A stretch of DNA of 64,000 bases. Source: Herbiconiux sp. Lineage in GTDB: Bacteria; Actinomycetota; Actinomycetes; Actinomycetales; Microbacteriaceae. Shown here in pieces: positions 34,413-38,985 of this stretch (the first letter of the stretch is position 1; each line of letters opens with the position of its first letter). The notes under the pieces are model-generated. The model was not told the origin of the DNA. It saw nothing but the letters and a program-made list of their open reading frames with translations, and ran no database searches. Where the stretch lies: the NCBI RefSeq assembly GCF_023264855.1, contig NZ_JAHFUW010000015.1, forward strand, positions 1 to 64,000. Reading direction: 5' to 3'. The position numbers and the translations under genes are program-made.

Positions 34413-35729
34413 GTGAAAATCCTGGTCCTCGGTTCGGGCGCGCGCGAGCACGCCATCATCACGGCGCTCCTGCGGGAGGGTGACGCGCACGAGATCGTGG
34501 CGGCGCCCGGGAACGCGGGTATCGCGGCCGATGTGCCGACGGTGCAGCTGGATGCCGAAGACCCGCACGCGGTCGCCGAGTACGCGCTGAGCGAGAACGT
34601 GCAGTTCGTCGTGATCGGGCCCGAGGCACCCCTGGTCGCGGGCGTCGCCGATGCCCTGCGCACCCGCGGCATCCCGGTGTTCGGGCCCGGAAAGAAGGCT
34701 GCCGCCCTCGAGGGCAGCAAGTCGTTCGCCAAGCGCATCATGGAGGCGGCCGGCGTGCCGACCGGCCGGGCCGCGAACGCCTCCACGCTCGCCGAGGCCG
34801 AGGCCACCCTCGCCGAGTACGGCGCCCCCTACGTGGTGAAGGCCGATGGGCTGGCCGCCGGCAAGGGCGTGCTGGTCACCACCGATCTCGCCGAGGCCAC
34901 CGCGCACGCCGCGCACTGGCTGCAGCACGGCGAGGTGCTGATCGAGGAGTTCCTCGAAGGCGAAGAGGTCTCCCTGTTCCTGCTGAGCGACGGCCACTCG
35001 GTCGCTCCGCTCTCCCCCGCCCAGGACTACAAGCGCCTCGCCGACGGCGACGAGGGCCCGAACACCGGCGGCATGGGCGCCTACTCCCCTCTCCCCTGGC
35101 TCGACGAGCGCTTCGGCAGCGAGAAGGCCTTCGTCGACGAGGTGATCGACACCATCGCCCTGCCGACCGTGCGTCAGCTCGCCGCCGAGGGGACTCCCTT
35201 CATCGGCCTGCTCTACTGCGGCCTGATCCTCACGGAGAAGGGCATCCGGGTGATCGAGTTCAACGCCCGCTTCGGCGATCCCGAGACCCAGGTGGTGCTG
35301 CCGCGCCTCGAGACCCCGCTGAGCGGCCTGCTGCTGGCGGCCGCCACGGGCACCCTGGGTGAGCATCCGCGACCCGTGTTCGGCGACCAGGTGGGCGTCA
35401 CCGTCGTGCTGGCCAGCGAGAACTACCCCGGATCCCCGGTGACCGGCCGGGTCATCACCGGTCTCGAGAACACCACCGGCCTCGAGGGCGTGAGCGTGAT
35501 GCACGCGGCGACGGATCGCGACGGCGAGGTCATCCGCGCCACCGGCGGCCGCGTGCTGAGCGTCGTCGCCACGGCCGGCGACTTCGCCACCGCGCGCGAT
35601 CGCGTGTACGGGGCGCTGGCCGGCATCCACCTCGAGAATTCGCAGCACCGCACCGACATCGCCGCCCGCGTGGCGGGGGTTCCGGATGCCGCGGGCGCAG
35701 CATCCGGAACCGACGGGGCCTCCTCGTGA
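34413..35729 (+). CDS. purD: Phosphoribosylamine-glycine ligase
   Basis: A 438-residue ATP-grasp enzyme catalysing the second step of purine synthesis (phosphoribosylamine + glycine + ATP to GAR). Landmarks: MKILVLGSGAREHAIITAL, VVIGPEAPLVAGVADAL, PYVVKADGLAAGKGVLV, EEFLEGEEVSLFLLSDG, DYKRLADGDEGPNTGGMGAYSP and EFNARFGDPETQVVLPRL. The last 20 residues are an Ala/Gly-rich tail. The start is GTG 34413, apparently leaderless. Its stop overlaps the purC start (GTGA, 35726-35729), so two non-consecutive steps of the pathway are co-translated. Confidence 0.97.
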   Translation: MKILVLGSGAREHAIITALLREGDAHEIVAAPGNAGIAADVPTVQLDAEDPHAVAEYALSENVQFVVIGPEAPLVAGVADALRTRGIPVFGPGKKAAALEGSKSFAKRIMEAAGVPTGRAANASTLAEAEATLAEYGAPYVVKADGLAAGKGVLVTTDLAEATAHAAHWLQHGEVLIEEFLEGEEVSLFLLSDGHSVAPLSPAQDYKRLADGDEGPNTGGMGAYSPLPWLDERFGSEKAFVDEVIDTIALPTVRQLAAEGTPFIGLLYCGLILTEKGIRVIEFNARFGDPETQVVLPRLETPLSGLLLAAATGTLGEHPRPVFGDQVGVTVVLASENYPGSPVTGRVITGLENTTGLEGVSVMHAATDRDGEVIRATGGRVLSVVATAGDFATARDRVYGALAGIHLENSQHRTDIAARVAGVPDAAGAASGTDGASS

Positions 35730-36652
35730 GCGCCGTCGCCCCGCAGCCCGAGCTGACCGTGCCCGGCTGGCGTCACGTCTACAGCGGCAAGGTGCGCGAC
35801 CTGTACGTGCCCGGCGACACCGCTCAGGATGCCCGCCCCGCCGCCCTGCTGGTGGTCGCGAGCGACCGGGTGAGCGCCTTCGACCACGTGCTCGAGCCGG
35901 GCATCCCGGGCAAGGGCGAGCTGCTCAGCACGCTCAGCCGCTGGTGGTTCCAGCAGCTGAGCGAAGTGCCGAACCACCTCGTCTCACCGGCGGAGGCCAA
36001 GGCGCTCGGGCTTCCCGCCGTTCCGGCCGGGATCGCCGGCCGCTCGATGGTGGTGCGCTCCCTGGAGATGTTCCCGATCGAGTGCGTGGTGCGCGGCTAC
36101 CTCTCCGGCAGCGGCTGGAAGGAATACCAGGCGACGCAGAGCGTCTGCGGCGTTCCGCTGCCCAGCGGCCTCGCCGACGGCGACCGGCTGCCCGAGCCCA
36201 TCTACACCCCCGCCTACAAGGCGCCCCTCGGCGAGCACGACGAGAACATCAGCTTCGAGAAGACCGTCGAGCTGATCGGGGCCGAGGATGCCGAGAGCCT
36301 GCGCACGCTGTCGCTGGCGGTCTACGGGCGCGCCTCGCAGATCGCCGAGAGCCGCGGCGTCATCCTCGCCGACACGAAGTTCGAGTTCGGGCGTGACGCC
36401 GACAGCGGCGAGATCGTGCTGGCCGACGAGGTGCTGACCAGCGACTCCAGCCGGTACTGGGATGCCGCCGCCTACGACTCGGGAGACCGCACCGCGAGCT
36501 TCGACAAGCAGATCGTGCGCAACTGGCTGGCCGCGAACTGGGACCAGGTGGGCGTGCCGCCGACGCTCCCGCACGAGATCGTGGAGCAGACCGTTCTGCG
36601 CTACCGCGAGCTGCTCGAGCGGGTGACCGGAGGACAGGCGCCCGGGCGGTAG
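35726..36652 (+). CDS. purC: SAICAR synthase
   Basis: A 308-residue phosphoribosylaminoimidazole-succinocarboxamide synthase, joining CAIR and aspartate with ATP. Landmarks: WRHVYSGKVRDLYVPGD, VVASDRVSAFDHVLEPGIPGKGELL, VRSLEMFPIECVVRGYLSGSGWKEY, EPIYTPAYKAPLGEHDENISFE and ILADTKFEFGRD, then EVLTSDSSRYWD. The N-terminus and length fit the actinobacterial/fungal-like type of about 300 residues. It starts with GTG in an overlap with purD. Next comes a structured leader and a drug exporter 114 nt away, which could receive read-through transcription. Confidence 0.97.
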   Translation: MSAVAPQPELTVPGWRHVYSGKVRDLYVPGDTAQDARPAALLVVASDRVSAFDHVLEPGIPGKGELLSTLSRWWFQQLSEVPNHLVSPAEAKALGLPAVPAGIAGRSMVVRSLEMFPIECVVRGYLSGSGWKEYQATQSVCGVPLPSGLADGDRLPEPIYTPAYKAPLGEHDENISFEKTVELIGAEDAESLRTLSLAVYGRASQIAESRGVILADTKFEFGRDADSGEIVLADEVLTSDSSRYWDAAAYDSGDRTASFDKQIVRNWLAANWDQVGVPPTLPHEIVEQTVLRYRELLERVTGGQAPGR

Positions 36653-36662
36653 CGCGATCCGG

Positions 36663-36668
36663 TAGGCT
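36663..36668 (+). promoter_or_regulatory. Possible -10 box before the exporter leader
   Basis: TAGGCT fits a -10 element but has no matching -35. If used, transcription would begin near 36675, after the first CTGGAGG. Confidence 0.3.
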
Positions 36669-36763
36669 GGAGGCCTGATCGACCCCGTCTGGTCGGGGAG
36701 GCCGGTTCTGCCGGTCCGAGGCTTGAAACCTCCAGCACCTTCGCACAGAAGCCTGGAGGTTTC
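36667..36763 (+). promoter_or_regulatory. Structured leader with SD-sequestering hairpin before an MFS exporter
   Basis: GAAACCTCCAG (36725-36735) pairs perfectly over 11 bp with CTGGAGGTTTC (36753-36763), and the loop adds an inner CTTC/GAAG stem. The right arm contains the exporter's GGAGG ribosome binding site, 7 nt before its ATG, so the hairpin would block translation. CTGGAGG also occurs at 36667-36673 and could compete for the CCTCCAG arm. Two small hairpins lie between (CCCCG/CGGGG at 36683-36698; CCGG/CCGG at 36703-36714). The layout is that of a translational switch; no known riboswitch class is recognised. Confidence 0.7.
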
Positions 36764-36766
36764 TTC

Positions 36767-38251
36767 ATGTCCGGATCCACCCCCACATCCGCCACCGGAG
36801 CATCCGTCTCCCCCGCATCCGGCCGCCGGTGGTGGACGCTTGCCGTTCTCGCCCTGACCCAGCTCGTGGTGGTGCTCGACGCCACCATCGTGAACATCGC
36901 GCTGCCCCAGGCACAGGCCGAGCTCGGCCTGACCGACGGCCAGCGGCAGTGGGTGATCACCGCCTACGCGCTCGTCTTCGGCGCCCTGCTGCTGCTCGGC
37001 GGCCGCGTGGCCGATTACTGGGGCCGCAAGCGCAGCTACCTCGTGGGCATGGTCGGCTTCGGCGTGGCCTCGGCCTTCGGCGGACTGGCGCAGAACGGCA
37101 CCGAGCTGATCGTGGCCCGCGGTTTCCAGGGACTGTTCGCGGCGCTGCTCGCGCCCGCCGCCCTGGGCCTGCTCACGGTGACCTTCCCCTCGGGGCGCGA
37201 CCGCAACACCGCCTTCGCCGTGTTCGGCGCGATCGGCGGCAGCGGTGCGGCCGTGGGCCTCGTGCTCGGCGGCGTGCTCACCGAGTTCGCCGACTGGCGC
37301 TGGTGCCTGCTGGTGAACGTCGTCTTCGTGATCGTGGGCCTGATCGGCGGCCTCCTGCTGCTGGCCGAGAGCCGCGCCGAGGGCGACAACCGCTACGACG
37401 TGTGGGGCGCGGTCACGGCCTCCCTCGGTCTCGGCGCGCTGGTGTACGGCTTCACGCTCGCCGAAGACGGCTGGGGATCGCCCAGCACCATCGGGTTCCT
37501 CGCTCTCGGCGCGGGCCTGCTCGCCCTGTTCGTGTGGATCGAGTCGCGCGTGGCCCAGCCCCTGCTGCCGCTGCGTGTGGTGCTGAACCGGGTGCGCGGT
37601 GGCGCGTTCCTCATCCAGGCCGTCGTCGGCAGCGTGCTGCTCGGATCGACGCTCTACCTCACCTTCTACTTCCAGCTCGTGCTCGGCATGGAGCCGCTGG
37701 TCTCCGGGCTCGCCAACGTGGCGATGACCGTGGTCATCTTGATCTGCGTGCCGATCCTCACCAAGCTGCTGCCGCGGGTCGGACCGCGCCCGCTGATGAT
37801 CGCCGGGCCGCTGATCTCGGCCGCCGGGCTGTTCCTGCTGGTGCGCATCACGGTCGACGGGAACTACTGGGTGCAGGTACTGCCCTCCCTGGTGCTGCTG
37901 GGCATCGGCCTGTCGATGCTGTTCGTGCCGCTGCAGAACCTCGCGCTGTCGGGCGTCGCCCCGCACGACGCGGGCGCGGCGGCGGCCACGGTGAACTCGG
38001 CGATGCAGATCGGCGGATCGATCGGGCTGGCCGTGTTCACCGTGCTCTACGCGGGCGCCTTCGAGGGGTCGATGGAGAGCGGATCGGGCCAGCTGGCCGC
38101 GTTCACCGACGGCTACGTGGCCACCTTCGTGGGGGCCGGGGTGGCGATGCTGATCGCCGCGGCCATCGCGGTGTTCTTCATCCGCGGGCCCAAGTCGGCT
38201 CTGCTGCCGCAGGGTGCGGGCGACGAGCGGGCGATGGTGCACCTGGGCTGA
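36767..38251 (+). CDS. MFS drug exporter, DHA2 (14-TM) family
   Basis: A 494-residue major facilitator with 14 predicted helices of the QacA/EmrB type. Motif A is LLLLGGRVADYWGRKRSYLVGM (about 65-86); the first helix has the DHA2 motif LVVVLDATIVNIALPQAQ, and motif C-like GGSGAAVGLVLGGVLTE follows. Proton-driven export of lipophilic drugs or dyes is expected; the substrate is unknown. GGAGG lies 7 nt before the ATG but inside a strong hairpin, so translation is probably conditional. The Ser/Thr/Ala-rich N-terminal 20 residues are cytoplasmic. Confidence 0.93.
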   Translation: MSGSTPTSATGASVSPASGRRWWTLAVLALTQLVVVLDATIVNIALPQAQAELGLTDGQRQWVITAYALVFGALLLLGGRVADYWGRKRSYLVGMVGFGVASAFGGLAQNGTELIVARGFQGLFAALLAPAALGLLTVTFPSGRDRNTAFAVFGAIGGSGAAVGLVLGGVLTEFADWRWCLLVNVVFVIVGLIGGLLLLAESRAEGDNRYDVWGAVTASLGLGALVYGFTLAEDGWGSPSTIGFLALGAGLLALFVWIESRVAQPLLPLRVVLNRVRGGAFLIQAVVGSVLLGSTLYLTFYFQLVLGMEPLVSGLANVAMTVVILICVPILTKLLPRVGPRPLMIAGPLISAAGLFLLVRITVDGNYWVQVLPSLVLLGIGLSMLFVPLQNLALSGVAPHDAGAAAATVNSAMQIGGSIGLAVFTVLYAGAFEGSMESGSGQLAAFTDGYVATFVGAGVAMLIAAAIAVFFIRGPKSALLPQGAGDERAMVHLG

Positions 38252-38280: not shown

Positions 38281-38985
38281 ATGGACGTCGTACTCATTGC
38301 AGGATTCTGGTTGCAGGGCGATTCGTGGAGCGCGGTCGCACCCGCCCTCCGCGAGGCCGGGCACACCGTGCACACACCGACACTGGCCGGGTTGCACTCG
38401 GTCGAGGAGGATCGCAGCGAGGTCACGCTCGCCTCACAGACCGCCGAGGTGATCGCGCTGCTCGATGCGCTGGATCCGTCGCGGCCGGTGGTGCTCGTCG
38501 GCCATTCGGGAGGCGGCGCGATCATCCACGGGGCGGTCGACGCCCGGCCGAACCGGGTGGCGCGGGCGATCTACGTCGACAGCGGGCCGACACCCGACGG
38601 GGTGGCCATCAACGAGCAGCTCGAGAGCGTGGGCTCGGATGTGCCGCTGCCGCCGTGGGACGAGTTCAGCGACACCGACCTGCGTGATCTCGACGACGAC
38701 CTGCAGGAGCGCGTTCGGACGGCGGCGATCCCCGAGCCCGCGCGGGTGGCGCGCGATCCGCAGCGCCTGTCCGACGCGGCGCGCTACGGCGTGCCGATCA
38801 CGCTCATCAGCTGCACCTTCAGCCGCGACGAGATCGCCGAGGCGATCGCGGCCGGCGTGCCGTACTTCGCCGAGGTCCCGTTGATGCTGAGCTCGAGCAT
38901 CATCGAGCTACCCACCGGGCACTGGCCGCAATTCACCAAGCCCGACGAGCTGGCGGCGGCCATCCTGGAGGCCATCGGGGCCTGA
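38281..38985 (+). CDS. Alpha/beta hydrolase (salicylate esterase-like)
   Basis: A 234-residue compact hydrolase. The fold starts at once with MDVVLIAGFWLQGDSWSAVAPALREAGHTVHTPTL; the nucleophile elbow is VLVGHSGGGAI (Ser about 78) and the likely catalytic His is in LPTGHWPQFTKPDELAAAI (about 217). Size and layout match small plant-type or MtaD-like esterases; the substrate is unknown. ATG 38281 was chosen because of the -10 box 7 nt upstream and because the hydrolase core starts there; an in-frame ATG at 38251 overlaps the exporter stop (TGATG) and would add ten residues. Confidence 0.88.
   Translation: MDVVLIAGFWLQGDSWSAVAPALREAGHTVHTPTLAGLHSVEEDRSEVTLASQTAEVIALLDALDPSRPVVLVGHSGGGAIIHGAVDARPNRVARAIYVDSGPTPDGVAINEQLESVGSDVPLPPWDEFSDTDLRDLDDDLQERVRTAAIPEPARVARDPQRLSDAARYGVPITLISCTFSRDEIAEAIAAGVPYFAEVPLMLSSSIIELPTGHWPQFTKPDELAAAILEAIGA

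Follow-up and report, generated by a model that had tools for sequence, protein, structure and literature searches.

Comparative analysis shows that a conserved core of three predicted hairpins (P1, P2 and P3) exists at the RNA level in front of a drug exporter gene of Herbiconiux sp., and that it is tied to one exporter clade. The leader that carries this core is apparently a structured RNA element new to description and common to many actinobacteria. In our opinion it is probably a cis-acting RNA switch of riboswitch type, one that likely turns the exporter on, probably in response to a toxic compound. The window is the whole stretch of 64,000 nucleotides that was analysed (contig NZ_JAHFUW010000015.1), and the features of its leader are collected in Table 1.

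Table 1. Features of the exporter leader, with positions in the window
Feature	Position	Strand	Remarks
-10 box TAGGCT of the leader's own promoter	36663..36668	+	TANNNT conserved in leaders
CTGGAGG, alternative partner proposed in the first-pass annotation	36667..36673	+	shares two bases with the -10 box
Conserved core (candidate sensor)	36674..36736	+	62.1 bits with model R2, by construction (the window leader is one of its 55 rows)
Proposed closing helix P0, CUG 36675-36677 with CAG 36733-36735	36675..36677 (5' strand)	+	tentative
Hairpin P1, 36678-36684 with 36691-36697	36678..36697	+	six of seven pairs formed in the window
Hairpin P2, 36700-36705 with 36711-36716	36700..36716	+	3' strand is the conserved GRUC
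Hairpin P3, GAGG 36718-36721 with CCUC 36729-36732	36718..36732	+	C36722.A36728, loop UUGAA; proposed antisequestor
SD hairpin, left arm GAAACCTCCAG = GAAACCUCCAG	36725..36735	+	11-bp inverted repeat; CCUC common with P3, CAG common with P0
SD hairpin, right arm CTGGAGGTTTC = CUGGAGGUUUC	36753..36763	+	contains the ribosome site GGAGG 36755-36759
DHA2/EmrB-type MFS drug exporter, 494 aa	36767..38251	+	14 hydrophobic segments

The leader, its promoter and its hairpins

The first-pass annotation had described the gene as a 14-TM exporter, which agrees with its hydrophobic segments and with TIGR00711 (DHA2/EmrB) as its best family, at 221.1 bits and below the curated cut-off of 230.2. An alpha/beta hydrolase gene (38281-38985) follows. 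In 26 longer loci, no neighbour gene is conserved beside the exporter beyond groups of 3-4 loci; sbcC/sbcD-like genes, recognized by eye in Microbacterium, are among these groups. Two further observations concern the surroundings. A perfect 12-bp inverted repeat around GGATGC/GCATCC lies at the purD end (35678-35711), and GCATCC also recurs in the 5' end of the exporter. On the minus strand, a 752-codon open frame (35984-38242) runs antisense to purC and the exporter; it is most likely a mere consequence of the high G+C content.

The sequence TANNNT stands at the expected place for a -10 box in 85 of 88 distinct leaders, as against a mean of 24.9 and a maximum of 35 in mononucleotide shuffles. 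In the window it lies directly after the end of purC (36652), and no good -35 box was seen by eye in this copy. We infer that transcription starts at about 36674-36676, some 6-8 nt past the -10 box, with the RNA beginning just before P1. The segment CTGGAGG, for which the first-pass annotation had foreseen absence from the RNA if the TAGGCT promoter is used, would indeed be left out. The same annotation had made this segment the alternative partner of the left arm CCTCCAG, a proposal that we rejected, since CTGGAGG overlaps the -10 box and such a partner occurs in only 2 of 87 leaders; the conserved competitor is the GAGG of P3. Read-through from purC, which would have included the segment, is not a general rule because the -10 box is conserved and purC is missing within roughly 1.5 kb upstream of the five homologues first compared.

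Three alignments were used for the core. The first (A1) holds 50 of 62 leaders, two being left out because P1 lies beyond the stretch cut (L018, L019), plus ten near-identical rows; the second (A2) excludes rows more than 90% alike, and the third (A3) takes 100 of 117 loci, 96 of them distinct. In A3, 92.6% of cells pair, two-sided changes are found in 268 cells versus 93 in shuffles, and the pairing score is 0.419 versus 0.201 when shuffled and at most 0.091 when slid. As A3 was fitted to a model with P1, P2 and P3, which favours its pairs, a phylogenetic null of 100 structure-free alignments simulated on the maximum-likelihood tree was added. In this simulated-phylogeny test, the nine best scores among all pairs of columns belong to pairs in P1 and P2. 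P1 has two-sided changes in all seven pairs, both in the 50 full leaders and again in the 96 distinct ones, and five of the seven are beyond the phylogenetic null at E 0.01 or less. For P2, 87.6% of cells are paired in A3, with two-sided changes in three inner pairs; against the null these three give E 0.49, 2.7 and 9.7, and the outer four are far from significance. The two small hairpins that the first-pass annotation had seen ahead of the SD hairpin are P1 and P2. In P0, 94% of cells pair among the 96 distinct leaders, with no covariation beyond the null (E above 300). With R2, the core is the only convincing match in the window and in the genome, where the next best matches reach 15.5 and 26.2 bits (L338), respectively. 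An H-type pseudoknot AGGCUU:AAGCCU, which fits the window, was discarded as it is missing from other leaders, e.g., L117 (by eye). Two leaders (L315, L317) have a very long G+C-rich extension in place of P2 and retain P1 and P3.

P3 follows the consensus GAGG-CUNRAAA-CCUC with a nearly fixed loop, which presumably resembles a T-loop, and it pairs in every A3 cell lettered on both sides; its variation is too small for covariation to be assessed statistically against the phylogenetic null. Several variants are found. The second pair changes from A-U to G.U in four distinct rows; GGGG/CCCC occurs in two genera (L283-L291); and GGG/CCC, in which one pair is co-deleted, occurs in six genera of four families (L200, L293-L297, L299, L306, L324, L343-L346, L348, L349). 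AGG/CCU is found in L298 and GGG/CCU in L347. In L319 and L342, U.G takes the place of the closing C.A, an exchange that we take to preserve the wobble shape. Judging from these variants, the predicted pairing of P3 is retained while its letters change. The inverted repeat GAGG/CCTC would also suit a repressor that binds the near-palindrome GAGGCTNGAAACCTC as DNA, and exporters are often controlled by TetR-type repressors. We consider such an operator very unlikely, given that what is conserved in P1 is its pairing rather than its sequence, and that the element is situated well past the promoter.

The SD hairpin has 11 bp without mismatch and a 17-nt loop, as the first-pass annotation had stated, and GGAGG is indeed within its right arm. 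Folded alone, positions 36721-36769 reach -22.6 kcal/mol versus a shuffled mean of -9.1 (z -5.6), and none of 200 shuffles equals this value. The window holds eight inverted-repeat hits of such size in five clusters, and eight Markov-shuffled windows hold 0 to 6; thus, the hairpin is unremarkable by length alone, and repeat length was dropped as evidence, not being significant against the shuffled windows. It is conservation, on our comparative reading, that marks the hairpin as real. The right arm is present in 85 of 88 leaders, which had been gathered with a pattern containing the left arm. Covariation, named in the first-pass annotation as a check on the leader, is present in P1, whereas most of the SD hairpin does not vary and a single pair covaries clearly in A1 (columns 92-117: G-C 30, A-U 15, G-U 2). 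In the window, a TTG reading frame runs across the left arm, and translation of a short upstream ORF might control the hairpin by erm-type attenuation. We find this scarcely credible: the TTG is CTC, CTG or CTA in other leaders, and a search for conserved upstream ORFs (at least 4 codons, ending in the leader) gave no start position common to more than 10 of 88 leaders.

Distribution and linkage to the exporter

In a DNA search of 40 relatives, nine gave a match. One is the window itself; five (L002-L006) are true homologues, whose leaders precede exporters 69-78% identical; and three weak ones (L007-L009) were dropped as they are not upstream of the exporter. Within Microbacteriaceae, the core pattern CCGAGGCTNGAAACCTCCNGC with up to two mismatches is found in 67 of 398 genomes (11 for the reversed control); several two-mismatch places were left out of the locus set. 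The window's own leader excluded, at least 63 distinct leaders lie upstream of exporters 53-78% identical. Searching with R2 at E up to 0.05 gave 69 of the 398 family genomes and 28 of 85 genera. Among 25 R2 places examined, mostly new or weak, 17 precede an exporter of the family, one another gene (L292) and seven are chance-like (L300-L305, L307) and were dropped. An order-wide search of 233 genomes (E up to 0.02) gave matches in 12; four were known already, and the eight new leaders are all upstream of exporters 54-68% identical, in four further families. A class-wide search with the first model matched 14 of 394 genomes, with 11 of the 14 loci preceding the exporter and three chance-like (L201-L203). 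Among the named hosts are Microbacterium, Leifsonia, Subtercola, Agreia, Pseudoclavibacter, Naasia, Herbiconiux, Streptomyces, Prescottella, Nocardioides and Aeromicrobium.

The linkage was followed within genera as well. In Microbacterium, the pattern matches 36 of 247 genomes, and 28 of 30 examined loci precede the exporter; the other two, with 1-2 mismatches, were dropped. In the genus of G454, taken as Streptomyces because its leaders are like named ones, the pattern occurs in 18 of 246 genomes, and of 18 loci examined all six exact matches precede the exporter and all 12 others (1-2 mismatches) do not. When R2 was applied to the best exporter matches in 40 relatives, a leader was found at all 15 exporters at least 70% identical (L308-L322, window included) and, at 32.2 bits, in another family of the order at an exporter 56% identical (L324). 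R2 found no leader at L323 (63%) or at the paralogue L332 (60%), nor, at E up to 0.01, in any of 12 loci with exporters at most 51% identical. These absences are not firm because the genomes were sampled and the filters were strict. By eye, a TetR-like regulator gene in divergent orientation apparently lies in the DNA upstream of the exporters of L323 and L332.

Chance has to be considered for weak matches. In unrelated bacteria, chance core-pattern matches reach up to 30.8 bits with R2 among the matches listed (L093), and L220, one of the dropped loci with 1-2 mismatches, has 30.0 bits, precedes another gene and was judged chance. Therefore, five loci at 29.5-32.5 bits (L306, L324, L347-L349) were accepted for their position before an exporter and not for their score. 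In a wider pattern scan, with at least 117 loci listed, 27 precede the exporter and two (L086, L094) other genes; the other 88 among the matches listed, with at most 30.8 bits, were taken as chance. In the plasmid collection, a leader-like query had no match at E 0.1 and the exporter none at E 1e-80. The viral collection gave one exact core-pattern match, rejected at 20.7 bits with R2, which is antisense within a 2069-codon phage-tail-like frame.

Proposed switching mechanism

P3 and the SD hairpin are mutually exclusive because both require CCUC 36729-36732; the candidate P0 would occupy CAG, the rest of CCUCCAG. Thus, the first-pass annotation was right that the leader of the exporter can hide the SD sequence and has two folds excluding each other, although the partner is the GAGG of P3 and not CTGGAGG. 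In the window, the computed energy is -48.9 kcal/mol for the SD fold and -36.9 kcal/mol when P3 is forced, so that the SD fold is favoured by 12.0. Among 14 leaders computed, the SD fold is stabler by 3.3-12.5 kcal/mol in the 12 usable ones; two comparisons were discarded as artefacts, the forced fold lying below the minimum free energy. In L006, the minimum free energy fold is neither of the forced folds. Since the SD fold is stabler than the P3 fold, the leader would be off by default and would require help to open.

We think that the switch could work as follows. In the absence of a signal, the stronger SD hairpin would form and GGAGG would be hidden. When a compound removed by the exporter binds to the core, P3 would be held, perhaps together with P0; CCUCCAG would then be tied up, GGAGG would be free and the exporter would be translated. 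Ligand binding, the ON direction and translation as the controlled step are all inferred here, and a leader that is off by default fits an exporter induced by its own substrate. Two features of riboswitches are found here: the sensor part of the 5' leader is structured and conserved (five of seven P1 pairs; 96 distinct leaders), and a platform is predicted that excludes the sensor fold (shared CCUC; 12 usable of 14 energies).

The signal could be a protein or a small RNA instead of a compound. A protein that binds the core might switch the same two folds, with no small molecule sensed by the RNA; the P3 region is short and highly fixed, and P1 is a fixed hairpin, as protein sites can be. However, we regard this as unlikely, because the product of the regulated gene is a transporter rather than an RNA-binding protein, the 26 loci compared have no conserved regulator gene beside the exporter, and the core has some 60-70 nt with several helices.

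The part downstream of the core is less constant. The core is retained with a different downstream part in L113, L176, L283-L291, L293-L297, L299 and L306, which would be the behaviour of a sensor joined to variable platforms, typical of riboswitches. In the GGG/CCC-core leaders L293-L297, L299 and L306, the SD hairpin is lost; for L294, L299 and L306, pairing is predicted between the P2/P3 strands and the segment just before the SD sequence. These leaders also bear on whether the SD hairpin, U-rich on its 3' side, is mainly an intrinsic terminator of a transcription-level switch. The spacers after the hairpin are mostly T/C-rich, with a run of at least five T in 27 of 85 leaders, and the run is also missing in most hairpin-less leaders (L283-L289, L293-L297, L299, L306). 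Nevertheless, L290 and L291, without the hairpin, still keep TTTCTTT; the window run is merely TTTCTTC, and its first U bases pair with GAAA; moreover, the hairpin loop is long, and the stem contains GGAGG at proper spacing to the ATG. A terminator seems to us an unlikely main function, and hiding of the ribosome site is our preferred reading.

Candidate ligand and comparison with known systems

A few leaders stand before something other than the usual exporter. In L298, the following gene is an exporter paralogue at 47.5%. In Glaciihabitans sp. dw_435 (L017 and L086, which are one site; the core is near 1500 and 2287, respectively, once the locus is turned), it encodes a pentapeptide-repeat protein, with a clear pentapeptide match and weak similarity to Qnr and MfpA below the cut-offs. 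In three genomes of one Microbacteriaceae genus (L175, L177, L292), the leader precedes a weakly antibiotic-biosynthesis-monooxygenase-like gene; the next gene in L177 encodes a DNA glycosylase similar to AlkA, below the curated cut-off. In Microbacterium rhizomatis (L094, 1372-1436), the leader is followed by a 12-codon frame overlapping a RuvA-like gene; no ruvB was noticed by eye in this stretch. A DNA-damaging ligand is a candidate because gyrase protection, base-excision repair and junction processing, the putative roles of these genes, point to DNA damage. With so small a sample, these three kinds of non-exporter gene give a hint in this direction. It is conceivable, if rather doubtful, that the leader represents a new actinobacterial riboswitch class that senses a DNA-damaging or gyrase-poisoning natural product and answers mostly with export and rarely with protection or repair.

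What the analysis offers is an orphan riboswitch candidate that is well bounded and for which about 100 examples have been aligned; its two-state model is clear, and its output is a drug exporter. Thanks to the rare non-exporter genes, the candidate ligand can be guessed and put to the test. Its discovery would give a lead on what this widespread clade of exporters has as its substrate, and it would show how environmental actinobacteria use RNA to sense a toxin.

The first-pass annotation had recognized no known riboswitch class, and Rfam 15, with its guanidine and yjdF classes, bears this out: the window has no match at the gathering score, and in five leader loci at E up to 1 there are seven matches of microRNA type, none inside the leader. 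We found no description of such a leader in the literature, although an entry in the large 2017 candidate-RNA survey or in supplements is possible; the accessible part of PMC8632094 makes no mention of one. The motifs described in the accessible parts of PMC11109978, PMC2864571, PMC7266159 and PMC9788692 differ from the exporter leader. The dauA and livJ motifs of Streptomyces, like our leader, are actinobacterial candidates at transporter genes with the SD sequence inside the structure; they belong to STAS-type transporter and LIVBP genes, and their structures, going by the descriptions in PMC11109978, appear to differ. The yjdF motif is listed for Firmicutes in a table of PMC2864571, and the leader has no Rfam match to it; it is alike in being a conserved RNA whose association is almost exclusively with a single gene. 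As far as the available part of PMC4793209 goes, yjdF is an azaaromatic riboswitch thought to sense toxic compounds in a protective role, with an uncertain natural ligand. The guanidine riboswitches (ykkC classes, guanidine-IV and Gd4v) are treated in PMC9788692. There, guanidine-IV and Gd4v, the latter found in Actinobacteria too, consist of two hairpins, a pseudoknot and a terminator, whereas the exporter leader consists of P1, P2, P3 and the SD hairpin; the likeness lies in the function, the guanidine riboswitches being leaders that switch exporters on.
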